From the NCBI GenBank assembly GCA_022820675.1, contig JAJEFC010000032.1, positions 1 to 34,220 of the forward strand: DNA of 34,220 nt. The letters run 5' to 3'. Shown piece by piece: positions 1,320-8,329 of the stretch (the first letter of the stretch is position 1; each line of letters starts with the position of its first letter). The translations under genes and the position numbers were made by a program. Below the pieces are notes generated by a model that was not told where the DNA came from, searched no databases, and saw only the letters and a list, made by a program, of their open reading frames with translations. This DNA is from Vicinamibacteria bacterium. GTDB lineage: Bacteria; Acidobacteriota; Vicinamibacteria; Vicinamibacterales; UBA8438.

Positions 1320-4300
1320 ATGGCTGACTGGAAACACACCCTGAACCTGCCTCGGACCGACTTTCCGATGCGCGCCAACCTCCAGAAGACGGAGCCGGCG
1401 GTGATCGCGCGCTGGAACGAGATGGGTCTGTACGAGCGCATCCGCGAGCGCCGGGCGGGGGCGCCGCGGTTCGTGCTGCACGACGGCCCCCCCTACGCGA
1501 ACGGGAAGATCCACATCGGGCACGTGCTGAACAAGGTGCTGAAGGACGTCGTCGTGCGGTCGCGGACCATGGCCGGGTTCGACGCGCCGTACGTGCCGGG
1601 CTGGGACTGCCACGGGCTGCCCATCGAGCTGAAGGTGGACCAGGAGCTGGGCGGGAAGAAGCGGCAGATGAGCGTGGCCGACTTCCGCCGCGCCTGCCGC
1701 CGCTACGCCCAGAAGTTCGTCGAGCGGCAGTCGGCCGACTTCCAGCGCCTCGGGGTGTCGGGCGACTGGCCGCGGCCGTACCGGACGATGACCCCCGACT
1801 ACCAGGCGGCCATCGTGCGCGCCCTCGGCCGGTTCGTCGAGCAGGGGGTGGTGTACAAGGGCAAGAAGCCGGTGCACTGGTGCCTGCACTGCCGCACCGC
1901 GCTGGCCGAGGCGGAGGTGGAGTACGAGCCCCACCGGTCGCCGTCGATCTACGTCGAGTTCCCGATGCGGGCGGCGTCGGCGGCGGCGCTCTCGGAGAAG
2001 GTCCCGGCCCTGGCCGGCCGGCCGGTATCCGTGCTCATCTGGACCACCACGCCGTGGACCATCCCGTCGAACCTCGCGGTCGCGTTCCACCCCGGCCTCG
2101 ATTACGGGGTCTATGCGGTCGGCGACGGCGACCCCGGGGCCGACGACGGAGCCGCAGCCGGGGACGACGGCAGAGCCGCAGCCGGGGACGATGACGGAGC
2201 CGCAGCCCGGGACGACGGCGGAGCCGCAGCCGGGGACGACGGCGGAGCCGCAGCCGGGGACGACGGCGGAGCCGCAGCCGGGGCCGACGACGGAGCCGCA
2301 GCCGGAGACGACGGCGGAGCCGCAGCCGGAGACGGCGCCGTGGTGATCATCGCCGAGGAGCTCCGGGACGCCACCGCCGCCGCCATCGGCCGCGACTTCG
2401 GCCCCCCCCTGGCCACCCTGAAGGGGCGCGACCTCGAGGGCGCGGTCTTCGGCCACCCCCTCTACGACCGCGACTCGGCCGGGGTGCTCGCCGACTACGT
2501 GACCCTGGAGCAGGGCACCGGCGCCGTGCACACCGCACCGGGGCACGGCGCCGACGACTACGCCACCGGGGTCCGCTACGGGCTCGACATCTACGCCCCG
2601 ATCGGGCCGTCGGGCCGGTTCGACGACGACGTCGGGGTGGTGGGGGGCGAGAAGGTCTTCGACGCCAACCCGAAGGTCGAGGCGGCGCTCGAGGAGGCCG
2701 GCCGGCTGTGGCACCGCGACACCGTGGACCACACCTACCCGCACTGCTGGCGCTGCCACCACCCGGTGATCTTCCTCGCCACCTGGCAGTGGTTCATCGC
2801 CATGGACACCGACGGGCTGCGGGAACGGGCCCTCTCCGCCATCCGGGAGGTCGAGTGGTTCCCGGGATGGGGCGAGGAGCGCATCCGCGGCATGCTCGCG
2901 AACCGGCCCGACTGGTGCATCTCCCGCCAGCGGTCGTGGGGAGTGCCGATTCCCGCCGTCTACTGCACCGCGTGCCGCGAGGCGGTGCTGACGACGGCCC
3001 TGACGGACCGGGCCGCCGCGGTGTTCGCCGAGCACGGGGCCGACGCGTGGTACGAGCGGGACGTCGGCGAGTTCGTCCCCCCCGACCTGCGGTGCCCCGA
3101 GTGCGGGGGGGCCGAGTTCGAGCGCGAGCGCGACATCCTCGACGTGTGGTTCGACTCGGGGTCGAGCCACCTGGGGGTGCTCTGCGACCATCCCGAGCTG
3201 GGGTGGCCGTACACGGTCTACCTGGAAGGCAGCGACCAGTACCGGGGCTGGTTCCACAGCTCGCTGCTGGTGGCCCTCGGCACGCGCGGCGCCGCCCCCT
3301 ATCGGCAGGTCATCACCCACGGCTTCGTCGTCGACGAGGCCGGCCGCAAGATGTCGAAGTCGATCGGCAACACCGTCGAGCCCCAGACGATCATCCGCCA
3401 GAGCGGGGCGGAGATACTGCGGCTGTGGGTGGCGATGGTCGACTACCGCGAGGAGGTGCGGATAGGCCCCCACATCCTCGACCGCATCGTCGAGGCGTAT
3501 CGCAAGATCCGCAACACGCTGCGGATTCTCGCCGGCAACCTCCACGACTTCGACCCGGCGGCGGACGCGGTGCCGCGGAGCGAGCTGCTCGACGTGGACC
3601 GCTACGCGCTGGCCCGCTACGGAGAGGTGGCGTCGCGGGTGCTCGCCGCCTACGAGCGCTACGAGCTGCAGGCGGTGGTGCACACCGTCAACCACTACCT
3701 CACGGTGGACATCAGCGCGTTCTACGTGGACATCTCGAAGGACCGCCTCTACACGCTGGGCCCGAGGTCGCGCGGCCGACGCTCGGCCCAGACCGTGATG
3801 CACGCGATCGCCGGGGGGGTCACCCGACTGCTCGCGCCCATTCTGCCGGTGACCTGCGACGAGCTGTGGCGCCACCTGCCGGGAACCGACGCCGAGAGCG
3901 TGCACCTCGCCGACTTCCCCGCCGACCCCGCATCGCTCGTCGACCGCGACCTCATCGCGCGGTGGGACCGGCTGCTCCGCCTGCGCGACGCGGTGAACGG
4001 CGAGCTGGAGAGGCTGCGGCAGGACAAGGTGGTGGGGACGTCGCTCGAGGCGGCGGTGACCCTGACCGCGGACGGCGGCCTGGCCGACCTGCTCGAGGCG
4101 CACCGCGACGACCTCGCGACGCTGTTCATCACCTCGGGCGTGACGCTGCGCAGCGGCGCCGCCGCCGGCGGTGAGGACGGGGCGGCGGTGCACCGCGACG
4201 GGGACGGCGGCGCCCGCATCGAGGTGGACCGGGCCGACGGCGCCAAGTGCCCGCGGTGCTGGCGCTGGGTGATGCCTCCCGGCGCCGCCCCGGACCCGTC

Positions 4301-4364
4301 CGACACGGCGGTCTGCGACCGGTGCACGAACGCGCTGGCGGACATGGCCGCGACGGTGGCGTAG
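1320..4364 (+). CDS. ileS: isoleucyl-tRNA synthetase
   Basis: Class Ia cytoplasmic aminoacyl-tRNA synthetase of 1014 residues. The HIGH box occurs in [14 protein letters not shown] near residue 60, and the KMSKS box in [10 protein letters not shown] near residue 678. The CP1 editing domain is recognisable from [12 protein letters not shown] and [12 protein letters not shown]. The C-terminal zinc module is CPRCW...CDRC. The enzyme charges tRNA-Ile and hydrolyses Val-tRNA-Ile. The oddity is a 64-residue insertion of eight 8-residue repeats (consensus GDDGGAAA) at residues 273-336 in an editing-domain hairpin loop, which adds length over the usual 930-950 residues. The frame is intact, so the protein is probably functional. 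The next gene begins only 14 bases after the stop, so read-through into the following module is likely. Confidence 0.97.
2136..2327. repeat. 24-bp in-frame tandem repeat inside ileS
   Basis: Eight contiguous units of 24 bp, nearly identical in the middle of the array and more diverged at both ends, as expected for slippage or unequal exchange. Each unit encodes eight residues of the form GDDGGAAA. The unit core GCGGAGCCGCAG also occurs in the intergenic palindromic repeats of this window, for example on the minus strand near 23330-23345. Confidence 0.93.
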
Positions 4365-4378
4365 CTTGGGACCGGACG

Positions 4379-6769
4379 ATGCCCACGATCGAAGCGAGCC
4401 TGACGGAGATCCAGTCCCGCCTCGACGGTGGAGAAGCAGCATGGCCGGAACAGGCCCTGACCGCGCTCATCGAGCAGATGGGTCCGGCTGAGCTCTCCGA
4501 CTGGCGCGCCGACCTCGAGATGCTGGTGCACAGGTTCCACAAGAAGCGCCGCAAGCACCTGGAGCGCATCTTCAGGGAGAGGATCGGCGCGAATGGAAAA
4601 GCCCCGCCCGGGATCCTGGACCCGGCCTACACGGCCATCGGACCGGAATCCCCGCTCTGGCGCGAATTCGAACACACGCTCGATGAACTCCGTGAGCGCC
4701 ACATTTTCCAGTGGTCCACGTTCTACCGGGACGGACTGGCAAAGCACTTCGAGAAGTTCCTGACCGCGCTTCGAAGCGCAGCCCCTGACGATCTCGCCGA
4801 CGCCCTCACCGGGCCTCTCGCCCACCATGCGCGGCAGGCCTTCTCTGACGGATACCTCCGCGCCCGGGACAAGGGTCTCAGTCACGACCTCGCGGTTGGC
4901 AGGGCCGCCAACGGCCTCGCCCGCTTTCTCGCCCTGCCCCTTGAGTTCTACGCCGCACGTGCATCCGCGGCGGCCGATCCGCGATCCGCTTGCGCGCTGC
5001 GTCTGCTCCTGTCCGCAGCCGTCACCGGCATCCTCACGGGTTGGTCGTCAACATCGTTCGGCAAGGTGACAGGTGGAGAGCTCCTGCCCCGGTTCCGTCG
5101 TTCCTGGATGCACTGCTCCGCCTTCCTCCTTCCGCGCCACGCCGAACGGATCATCGCCGGTATCGAGACCGGAGACCTGAGCGAGGGCCTCAAGACATCG
5201 CTGCTACCCGCACTCGAGGCCCTTCAGAAGCTCTTCGATAACCCCGGCGACGACTATTCTCCCCTCCCGGTCACCGGTCAGTATTCGTGGCACCGCCGCC
5301 GTCTGGACATCGCCGTGCGGCCGCCGGGCGACGCGCAGCGCCTCATGGAAGTCAGCGTGTTCCTGGAGGAGGGATTCGTCTCGATCACGGAACTCGAGGA
5401 CGCCATCGCTCGGCAGGCGACGCTCGTCATTGCGCCGATGAGGCCGGACGTTCAGAAGATCGTGAACGATCGCGCGGCCCTGAGCGACATAGTCGTCCCC
5501 GTCGAGCCGGACCGGTCACGCACCGCAAAGAACGCGCACCGCGTCTGGAACGAGGCCATTGACAAGCTGCGGAGCCGACTGCAACGGAACGCGCCGATCA
5601 CCTACAACTTCGCGGAGGAGTTCCCGCTGGAGAAGCCGGACAAGGCTCCGTTCTTCCACGTCTCGAGGACGAGCGTCCGCGATCTGCTCCGCACGTTCGA
5701 GCGTCGCAACGGCGTGCGGCTCTGGTGCAGCGTGCGCAGAAGCGGCAAGACGACGGCCTGCCTGGACCTTGGCTCCACGTCCGGCGATTCCACGGTCGTC
5801 TCGCAGACGTGTGGACAATCCGACCGGGAGGAAGCCCAGAGATTCCACGAGAACGTCCGTCAGGCGCTGGCCGCCGGCCGGATGCTGTCGGAGACGTTCG
5901 TGAAGGACGCGGTCGCCGATTGCGCGCCCGTCGATGTCGAGAACCGGAGAGTGGTCTTCGTGCTCGACGAGTACGAGACGCTCTTCGACCACCTCGACGC
6001 GGCGGCGGAGGGATCCCGCCTGACTCGATACAACGTCGTCCAGCCGATCCTGAATCAGTTGGCCTCGTTCTCGCACGAGAACCTGCTCGTGTTCCTGGGG
6101 CAGAAGCCGGGTGCGCACTTCATCCTCATGGATCAGAACCAGCTCGCGCCCTACGTCACGCAGGAGCCCTTCCCGCTGTTCGAGCACTCTTCGGGCAAGA
6201 CGAAGGGCGAGTTTCCCGAACTGGTGGACAAGATACTGGGCGGACGCGTGGAGTGCACCGCGGACTTCCTCGACGCCTTGTTCGCCGAGACGGCCGGCCA
6301 TCCATTCCTGACCGCCAACGTGCTCGTCGAGTTCGTCGACTGGCTGATAGACACGAAGCGCCCACAGTCGGCCCTGCGCGTTGACGCCAGCGATTTCGAG
6401 CACTTCGCGGCCGGCCGGTTGCAGGTGGACCGGATCTTGTCCGGCCGGGCGTACCGCTTCTTCCGGAAAGCGGCGGCGGAGGCGATGTCGGAGCGGGGGT
6501 TCCGAAACAACCGGTGGTTGTTCGCCGCGTACTGGCTGATCCGCGGGCTGTCGGGCGACGGGGCGGACCGCTTCGCCACGCCCTTGGCCAGGCTGGACGA
6601 GCTGACGAGGAAGATCCCGGTTCCAGCCGGGGAACGCCTGCCGGATCCGGAGGAGTTGCTGAGCTCGGCGTCCCTCGCCAACTTCCTGGAACGCGGACGT
6701 GACGCAATAGCCGTGAAGATCCGGACGCTGGGGCGGATCGCGGCGGCGGTCCGACCCGCCCTGGCCTGA
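4379..6769 (+). CDS. large P-loop ATPase of unknown function, STAND/archaeal-ATPase-like
   Basis: A 796-residue protein. Residues 1-330 are largely helical with no domain I recognise. Residues about 330-430 look alpha/beta (LMEVSVFLEEGFVSITE, TLVIAPMRPDV). The ATPase core follows: Walker A SVRRSGKTT with Lys457 (the usual first Gly is Ser), Walker B VVFVLDEYE with Asp530-Glu531, a sensor-like NLLVFLGQKPG, and TAGHPF at 638-643, which resembles the T-x-GHP motif after the core in archaeal-type and STAND NTPases. The ATG is preferred over an upstream in-frame start inside ileS. It lies 14 bases after ileS and 16 before the next gene. Codon use and GC look lower than in the flanking genes, suggesting transfer. 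Defence, signalling or chromosome-related roles are all possible; none is shown. Confidence 0.8.
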   Translation: MPTIEASLTEIQSRLDGGEAAWPEQALTALIEQMGPAELSDWRADLEMLVHRFHKKRRKHLERIFRERIGANGKAPPGILDPAYTAIGPESPLWREFEHTLDELRERHIFQWSTFYRDGLAKHFEKFLTALRSAAPDDLADALTGPLAHHARQAFSDGYLRARDKGLSHDLAVGRAANGLARFLALPLEFYAARASAAADPRSACALRLLLSAAVTGILTGWSSTSFGKVTGGELLPRFRRSWMHCSAFLLPRHAERIIAGIETGDLSEGLKTSLLPALEALQKLFDNPGDDYSPLPVTGQYSWHRRRLDIAVRPPGDAQRLMEVSVFLEEGFVSITELEDAIARQATLVIAPMRPDVQKIVNDRAALSDIVVPVEPDRSRTAKNAHRVWNEAIDKLRSRLQRNAPITYNFAEEFPLEKPDKAPFFHVSRTSVRDLLRTFERRNGVRLWCSVRRSGKTTACLDLGSTSGDSTVVSQTCGQSDREEAQRFHENVRQALAAGRMLSETFVKDAVADCAPVDVENRRVVFVLDEYETLFDHLDAAAEGSRLTRYNVVQPILNQLASFSHENLLVFLGQKPGAHFILMDQNQLAPYVTQEPFPLFEHSSGKTKGEFPELVDKILGGRVECTADFLDALFAETAGHPFLTANVLVEFVDWLIDTKRPQSALRVDASDFEHFAAGRLQVDRILSGRAYRFFRKAAAEAMSERGFRNNRWLFAAYWLIRGLSGDGADRFATPLARLDELTRKIPVPAGERLPDPEELLSSASLANFLERGRDAIAVKIRTLGRIAAAVRPALA

Positions 6770-6785
6770 GACCACGCCACCAACG

Positions 6786-7784
6786 ATGCTGGATGCGACG
6801 ACGGTGGTGGAGAGCGTTCGTTCGCGGCCGCGAGAAAAGTTGCGAGTATTCTGGGTGAGGGTGCCGCGCGACCGCGACGGCTTCAGGCGGAAGATCGCGC
6901 AACTGCGGGCTCGGTCTCCGATCGTGCCATGGGTGTTGCGCAAGGCGGCCTTGCGGCACGCGGATTCGGTGATGAGCGACATTCTCGACATTCTGAACGA
7001 TGCGCGGGCGGAGATTCTGGCGGTCGAGGGCGCAGCCAGGGAGGCGGGCGGCGTGGATCTGGTAATGCTCGGAAAGGCGGATCTGGAGCTGGCCGACACG
7101 TCGTCACCGATCCTGCTCCCGGATTGGTTCCCCGTGGCGCCGGGTCAGACCCCCGAGGTCCACATCGAGGATCTCACGTGGTCGGCCCGCGTCTTGTTGT
7201 CGGATCCCAAATTGGCGCTCGACGACCTGAGACGGTTGCTCCATGAACTCGATGAGACGCTGACGCGAAGCCTGCTGGCGTCTCGGGCGGCCGATCATCG
7301 ACTCACGAACTCGCTCTGGGACCAGATTGGTCCGAAGAACTCTGGAATCGAGGACACGTTGCGAGAGGCGCAAGGCAGGCTGGACGCGGTCACCCCGACT
7401 GCCTACAGACCGAGTACGAGGCATGGAAAGCCCACGGTGGTCGGCCTGCTGTGGCGGCATGCCAACGGCACTCCGCCCGATGCCGTGAGCAGGACGGCCA
7501 AGGCGCTCGTCGAGGTGTTGCGCATCAAGGACACGGAGATCGGACGCGACGCATCACTGGCGGCGGTGCTGAACCGCCCGTCCAGTCCGTTGGTCGGGCG
7601 CGTACAATGGGCGTTTTCTCTGATAGTGACCGTGCGTTGTGCGTGCCAACTGGTGACGGCGGCGGCGCACGCCGACGAGTATCCACGTTTCGGTGCCGAG
7701 CTGCTGCAGGCAACCTCGCACGACCTGCGGTCGTTCCTCGATGATGCGGTGGCAAGACTGCGAATCGCGGAAGGCGCTCCATGA
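6786..7784 (+). CDS. unknown protein, partner of the upstream ATPase
   Basis: A 332-residue protein that I do not recognise. The N-terminal 115 residues are basic and helical. A central segment SSPILLPDWFPVAPGQTPEV plus IEDLTWSARVLL looks like a conserved strand-rich core around residues 113-140. The rest is mainly helical, with one hydrophobic stretch (WAFSLIVTVRCACQLVTAAA, about residues 277-296) that could be a buried helix or a weak membrane segment. The start lies 16 bases after the ATPase stop, and the TGA overlaps the lspA ATG as ATGA, so all three are probably translated from one message. Base composition matches the ATPase gene and not the flanks. A cooperating pair with the ATPase is inferred from adjacency only. 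Confidence 0.72.
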   Translation: MLDATTVVESVRSRPREKLRVFWVRVPRDRDGFRRKIAQLRARSPIVPWVLRKAALRHADSVMSDILDILNDARAEILAVEGAAREAGGVDLVMLGKADLELADTSSPILLPDWFPVAPGQTPEVHIEDLTWSARVLLSDPKLALDDLRRLLHELDETLTRSLLASRAADHRLTNSLWDQIGPKNSGIEDTLREAQGRLDAVTPTAYRPSTRHGKPTVVGLLWRHANGTPPDAVSRTAKALVEVLRIKDTEIGRDASLAAVLNRPSSPLVGRVQWAFSLIVTVRCACQLVTAAAHADEYPRFGAELLQATSHDLRSFLDDAVARLRIAEGAP

Positions 7785-8329
7785 CCACCGACAAGCCGCC
7801 GGCAGCGGCGACCGCCGCCGACCACGGGGCCCCCGGTTTCCCGAGCCGCAACATCCTGGCCGCGGCCAGCGTGGTGATCGTGGTCCTCGACCAGGTCACC
7901 AAGCAGATGGTGCGGACGGGCATCGCGCTGTACGACTCGGTCGAGGTGATACCGGGCCTGCTGAACCTGGTGCACGTGCGCAACACCGGGGCCGCGTTCG
8001 GGTTCCTGAACCTCGCCGACCTCCCCTACAAGCGGGTGCTGATGACGGGCATGGCCCTGGTCGCCTTGGCCGCCGTCGGCTGGTTCGCGTCGCAGGTGGG
8101 CCCGCGGGCGGTGCTGGCGCGGTCCGGCCTCGCCCTGATCGTCGGCGGGGCCGTCGGCAACCTCATCGACCGGGCGCTGGTCGGCCACGTCGTCGACTTC
8201 GTCGACGTCTACTGGGGAAGCGTGCACTTCTGGGCATTCAACGTGGCCGACTCCGCGATCACGGTCGGGGCCGGCCTGCTGATCCTCGACCTGATCCGGA
8301 GCCCGGACGATGTATCCACTGCTGTTTGA
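7781..8329 (+). CDS. lspA: lipoprotein signal peptidase (signal peptidase II)
   Basis: Inner-membrane aspartyl protease of 182 residues that removes the signal peptide from diacylglyceryl-modified prolipoproteins. Four hydrophobic segments are visible. The catalytic dyad is in GNLIDR (Asp130) and FNVADSAI (Asp157), and the family motif VRNTGAAFGFL is present. A non-conserved N-terminal tail of about 22 residues rich in Ala and Pro precedes the first membrane helix. It overlaps the preceding unknown gene by 4 bases and lgt by 20 bases, so it belongs to a tightly coupled run. ileS-lspA adjacency is common in bacteria; here the pair is separated by the ATPase module. Confidence 0.95.
   Translation: MTTDKPPAAATAADHGAPGFPSRNILAAASVVIVVLDQVTKQMVRTGIALYDSVEVIPGLLNLVHVRNTGAAFGFLNLADLPYKRVLMTGMALVALAAVGWFASQVGPRAVLARSGLALIVGGAVGNLIDRALVGHVVDFVDVYWGSVHFWAFNVADSAITVGAGLLILDLIRSPDDVSTAV

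Follow-up and report, generated by a model that had tools for sequence, protein, structure and literature searches.

Two genes of a Vicinamibacteria bacterium, inserted between ileS and lspA, raise the question of how an NTPase and its small neighbor came to lie there and what they do. The window, i.e., the whole stretch of DNA analyzed, comprises 34,220 nucleotides of contig JAJEFC010000032.1, and the locus is laid out as follows.

1320..4364, + strand: ileS, the upstream flank; an ORF that aligns with ileS from family genomes, in which ileS is next to lspA
4379..6769, + strand: gene 1, NTPase, 796 aa; an ORF with four full-length homologues (27-40% identity), ATPase_2-like by profile
6786..7784, + strand: gene 2, partner protein, 332 aa; an ORF with four homologues, each directly downstream of gene 1
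7781..8329, + strand: lspA, the downstream flank; an ORF supported by alignment with family genomes

Genes 1 and 2 are intact, complete ORFs of 796 and 332 codons, confirming the closely spaced frames described in the first-pass annotation. The ileS stop is followed by 14 bp, gene 1, 16 bp and gene 2, and the ATG of lspA overlaps the gene 2 stop (ATGA). Since no sigma-70-like promoter was found in 4200-8000, the pair may be co-read with ileS; other promoter types are possible. Judged against the genes of the window (ileS, lspA, lgt and the TPR gene), the codon use of both genes is foreign: GC3 is 0.84 in gene 1 and 0.77 in gene 2 vs 0.91-0.98 in these four, and codon distances of 0.16 and 0.28, respectively, compare with 0.04-0.11 in the flanking genes. 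Relative to the flanks, GC content and codon use had seemed lower on first reading, an impression that these values bear out. No target-site duplication was recognized around the window copy of the pair. The neighboring ileS has a peculiarity of its own, a 24-bp in-frame tandem repeat (window 2134-2334; 8.4 copies, 91% matches) that lengthens the protein by some 60 residues (GDDGGAAA...) around positions 268-337; the alignment of ileS from the congener G002 spans 955 codons vs 1014.

Genes that sit exactly between ileS and lspA and overlap the lspA start could be a vertically inherited housekeeping pair of the ileS-lspA operon, yet the relatives leave this explanation with practically no chance. 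Of 28 family genomes, 27 yielded lspA, and in all of the informative family genomes outside the genus (23/23), ileS and lspA are adjacent with no room for the pair. In the nearest relative, G001 (ileS 94-96% and lspA 94% identical), ~227 bp of repeat-rich DNA, dissimilar to the pair, lies between the stop of ileS and the start of lspA; this spacer (L050, 2060-2286) consists of short GC-rich repeated segments. In G002 (lspA ~80% identical), codons 1-38 of gene 1 are joined to codons 177-331 of gene 2, the rest being deleted. The junctions that lack the pair and the deletion relic refute the housekeeping explanation and, together with homologues at other loci, uphold the first-pass view that the genes were transferred rather than vertically conserved; neither gene matches a characterized housekeeping family. 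Clean absence in G001, a relic in G002 and adjacency elsewhere in the family point to a history that probably comprised one gain before these three genomes (the window genome, G001 and G002) split and at least two losses, with relatedness judged by lspA and ileS identity alone, without a tree. The gene 2 remnant of G002 (L016, 6343-6819) is open over 155 codons and ends at lspA; with dN of 0.25 and dS of 0.57 (dN/dS ~0.44), the remnant may persist because it couples translation to lspA, or it may just be of recent origin.

Five independent copies of the two-gene pair were found, including that of the window. In Klebsiella pneumoniae, a tblastn search of plasmids revealed a gene 1 homologue on two conjugative plasmids (99% of the length, 27% identity), immediately followed by a gene 2 homologue (28% identity, E 7e-38). 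Two degenerate peptide patterns, run against 84,980 genomes, picked up one pair, in Acinetobacter baumannii; such a scan is narrow, and there must be more pairs than this. Among 297 genomes of the host phylum, a profile search recovered full pairs in G231 and G371, with gene 1 identities of 37-40%. Order and strand are the same at all five loci, and the two genes overlap or are separated by up to 16 bp. The gene 2 profile finds exactly those phylum genomes that carry gene 1 (3/396), and never a genome without it. Copies are rare: the 193 genomes of the host class contribute the window copy and one relic, with one of 149 genomes in the class of G231, and one full copy in 162 genomes in the class of G371. 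Two further matches, an FHA-like protein in G307 and an 81-residue stretch with two stops in G446, were treated as chance. Viral contigs, phages and E. coli genomes yielded no relative at the sensitivity used (the phage collection was queried with the Klebsiella homologue only). At least two phyla share the pair as a conserved unit, which occurs in few genomes and at unrelated loci; gene 1 and gene 2 are one horizontally mobile module with an obligate partner.

Searches of Pfam, NCBIfam and PADLOC (PADLOC-DB 2.0.0, of 2023) gave no credible match for either protein, in keeping with the earlier statement that gene 2 matches no known family and extending it to gene 1. The best PADLOC match among the members, PDC-S57, has an E of 0.009 in one member and is not credible; matches to Phi6 P8, XLF, PXA, GET4 and similar weak Pfam matches, each confined to a single member, were put down to chance. 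Single-sequence and profile searches of the PDB gave nothing credible for either protein. No paper was found for the accessions, and general literature searches gave no description of the pair; defence catalogues later than PADLOC 2023 may hold it.

A role in defence, offered as one hypothesis in the first-pass annotation, is inferred from the genomic context of the pair. In A. baumannii (L007), the genes for GajB, GajA, a tyrosine integrase and an IS transposase precede gene 1 and gene 2. After the pair come 133-145 bp repeating the 3' end of the integrase, a class II pAgo and its helical REase partner; the far end is occupied by a nSTAND3-like protein, which narrowly misses the Pfam cut-off, then a HEAT-like protein and finally another integrase. 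The scores are E 7e-269 for GajA, E 1e-204 for GajB and E 2e-284 for the class II pAgo. Flanked by integrase ends, the pair together with the IS makes up a separate unit inside this defence island. Toward the far end (L007 17277-21262), the nSTAND3-like protein of 766 aa shows a weak LmuA-like N-terminal match and the HEAT-like protein of 576 aa has no PADLOC match; their genes are possibly another undescribed two-gene module. The pair on the Klebsiella plasmid pKP1601-1 is preceded, at a distance of 1.3 kb, by a defence gene for a dGTPase (E 1.7e-106) and followed by an IS110. The two Klebsiella plasmids agree without mismatch over 8.9 kb, starting ~510 bp before gene 1, while the DNA upstream differs. 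On the other plasmid, pKPN0421-1, an AriA/AriB-like (PARIS-like) pair is found ~24 kb from gene 1 and gene 2; there (L008 19318-21654), a DUF4435 protein resembles AriB and an AAA ATPase resembles AriA, with modest scores.

The chromosomal neighbors in G231 and G371 are kinases, signaling and housekeeping genes; PD-T4-6 matches of two G231 neighbors were set aside as generic Ser/Thr kinases. A specific defence gene thus lies within ten genes at two of the five loci (Gabija and pAgo in Acinetobacter, the dGTPase in Klebsiella), and none was seen beside the pair in the window, G231 or G371. In a published survey of E. coli, the rate is 17% among known defence genes and 2% among genes overall (PMC13092281). 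At 2%, the probability of at least two of five loci is 0.004, a guide only, as the rate comes from another host and mobile elements are defence-enriched. The first-pass annotation had proposed looking for the two genes together in varied contexts, near defence genes or integrases: their co-occurrence is clear, with pairs carried by plasmids, by a defence island and by chromosomes at other sites, and specific defence genes lie nearby at the Acinetobacter and Klebsiella loci (integrases at the former), with none seen at the other three.

Pairing, rarity, the relic or absence in congeners, foreign codon use, the NTPase motifs and the Acinetobacter and Klebsiella contexts all speak for defence. 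Counted against it are the three contexts of five without a specific defence gene, the absence of the family from phage records and viral contigs, and the many other cargoes that islands and plasmids carry. On balance, these features favor, by a modest degree of confidence, an immune system directed against phages or other mobile elements.

The same contexts admit a mobile cargo with no immune role, e.g., in stress response, regulation, or plasmid or island maintenance, such as an addiction module controlled by the NTPase. The pair does travel on conjugative plasmids and on segments bounded by IS or integrases, which bear mixed cargo, and the missing defence neighbors at three of five loci fit this explanation. 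Yet the pair persists at chromosomal loci without visible mobile elements, its repeated loss in the host genus speaks against addiction, and in the one integrase-bounded chromosomal island examined (n=1), all recognizable non-mobile genes to either side belong to known defence systems. We therefore regard a non-immune cargo as a minority prospect next to immunity.

The gene 1 protein can be divided, with approximate boundaries, into a helical region (~1-290), an alpha/beta region (~300-405), a P-loop NTPase (~405-690) and a C-terminal part (690-796). Its conserved signatures are these.

4700..4714, + strand: HIFQW, N-terminal signature; HIF[QE]W in 5/5 members
5723..5758, + strand: Walker A, WCSVRRSGKTTA, in which Ser replaces the first Gly; invariant in 5/5 members
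5747-5749, + strand: codon of K457 in Walker A
5957..5986, + strand: Walker B, FVLDEYETLF; LDEYET invariant in 5/5 members
6287..6313, + strand: ETAGHPFLT, at the place of the STAND GxP motif; ET.GHP.LT invariant in 5/5 members

The P-loop reads S451-VRRSGKTT and contains K457, and TAGHPF corresponds to residues 638-643. QNQL, FPLF and a C-terminal region are also kept in the five-member alignment. The Walker A with Ser for Gly, the DE Walker B and the TAGHPF motif were all correctly recognized in the first-pass annotation, and the invariance of the motif cores across five members indicates that they are not due to chance. The order of Walker A, Walker B and G-x-P is that of STAND-type NTPases, in which the GxP motif is located on the last helix of the helical domain (PMC6468293); in gene 1, ET.GHP.LT lies ~105 residues past Walker B, a placement read from the sequence only.

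Profile comparison places gene 1 near ATPase_2 (PF01637). When the five-member profile was aligned by hhalign with seven ATPase_2 proteins from relatives, a single profile pair, the match covered columns 437-677, a span that opens shortly ahead of Walker A and runs beyond the GHP motif, with a probability of 82 (E 1e-5); the controls, eight column-shuffled profiles and reversed ones, stayed at or below 0.1. The PF01637 model itself matches none of the five members, which do not score even weakly with any other NTPase model of Pfam. ATPase_2 proteins and gene 1 share an R-R-x-GKT/S Walker A, a DE Walker B and a GxP-like motif in similar order; gene 1 differs in the Ser at the first Walker A Gly, the 400-residue N-terminal extension and the obligate second gene. 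Gene 1 is thus a putative STAND-like (ATPase_2-type) NTPase with moderate profile support: the earlier assignment to STAND/archaeal-like NTPases stands as far as the motifs and the ATPase_2 profile match go, while PF01637 does not match. In STAND proteins a winged-helix domain, a defining element, directly follows the helical domain; in gene 1 the last ~100 residues are conserved and, in a low-confidence prediction, mostly helical. Region 300-405 lacks a D...ExK conserved across the five members, which makes an active nuclease of the PD-(D/E)XK class unlikely.

Transcription regulators occur among bacterial STAND proteins (PMC6468293) and the gene 1 motifs stand in STAND order, so that a STAND-like transcriptional or signaling regulator with a dedicated partner, comparable to MalT-type proteins, has to be weighed. 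A regulator of this kind is improbable: no DNA-binding domain was recognized, and neighboring target genes are not conserved across the five loci.

Two invariant motifs mark the gene 2 protein.

7116..7133, + strand: LPDWFP; LP.WFP invariant in 5/5 members
7659..7685, + strand: AAAHADEYP; AH..EYP invariant in 5/5 members

A low-confidence model of gene 2 has an alpha/beta N-terminal half and a helical C-terminal half; AlphaFold models of both proteins, built from two-sequence alignments for each, have a mean pLDDT of 43-44 and are too poor to use. The AH..EYP site recalls the GN..AH of DUF4145 HEPN proteins, suggesting a HEPN-type RNase effector, and the best local alignment with DUF4145 members pairs exactly QLVTAAAHADE with RKVGNIGAHME. 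This alignment is not significant, however (hhalign probability 0.2, E 0.24), and the HEPN arginine is replaced by an invariant Gln, giving Q288-x6-H295 instead of R-x4-6-H. Lacking both the R-x4-6-H motif and a significant profile match, the HEPN assignment of the site is not supported, and a HEPN RNase is an unlikely identity for gene 2.

How might an immune pair of this composition work? Resting STAND NTPases are ADP-bound, and a signal triggers nucleotide exchange and multimerization (PMC6468293); the mechanism considered here is modeled on STAND proteins in general (PMC6468293). The gene 1 NTPase would be a switch, inactive until its N-terminal part, or the partner, meets a signal from the invader; once activated, it would swap ADP for ATP and oligomerize. 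The gene 2 protein would be the output, engaged by the active NTPase to keep the invader from replicating or the infected cell from growing. With no repeat domain C-terminal to the NTPase, sensing would most likely fall to the long N-terminal part of gene 1. The partner appears the likeliest executor, and reversed roles, with the partner sensing and gene 1 executing, are possible. Such a division of labor, in which the NTPase senses and the partner executes, can be proposed only tentatively. Slightly better placed, and still short of probable, is the full architecture: an undescribed two-gene immunity that combines a STAND/ATPase_2 NTPase, its NTPase domain near the C-terminus, with a new helical N-terminal sensor and a partner of new fold or activity. 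Our confidence falls from immunity to the NTPase as a switch and then to the partner as the output.

Among known defences, Avs proteins carry the NTPase in mid-protein and a long C-terminal repeat sensor. Likeness to Avs and other STAND-NTPase defence lies in the large NTPase expected to act as an ATP switch and in the association with mobile elements and defence islands; gene 1 differs from AVAST (Avs) proteins in having its NTPase near the C-terminus, no sensor repeats after it and a separate partner gene, and PADLOC Avs models match neither gene 1 nor gene 2. Gabija (GajAB), a close neighbor in the Acinetobacter island, has the same two-gene layout of ATPase plus partner in defence. By contrast with the pair, GajA is an OLD-type ATPase-nuclease and GajB a UvrD-like helicase, and PADLOC Gabija models match neither gene. 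From motifs and genomic neighborhoods, the pair is probably an undescribed anti-phage or anti-plasmid system: NTPase-plus-partner defence is a known kind, of which it would probably be an undescribed example.

Because both genes fall outside the searched libraries, annotation and defence-finding pipelines built on them would miss the pair. If it protects cells, it would add to bacterial immunity an NTPase-partner arrangement and a partner without a recognized family. Its presence in Klebsiella and Acinetobacter, besides a little-studied high-GC host, makes it testable now in laboratory strains and phages.

AAA_35 (PF14516) NTPases are a more distant point of comparison. Their stretch from Walker B to GxPWL aligns with gene 1, weakly at the profile level (probability 3.5-7), whereas their Walker A, PRQTGKTS, differs. 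AAA_35-like NTPases with this Walker A are multi-copy in the host genus, most of them near or below the Pfam cut-off; the window genome itself (G000) has three such matches (L056, L067 and L072), and others occur in its congeners.
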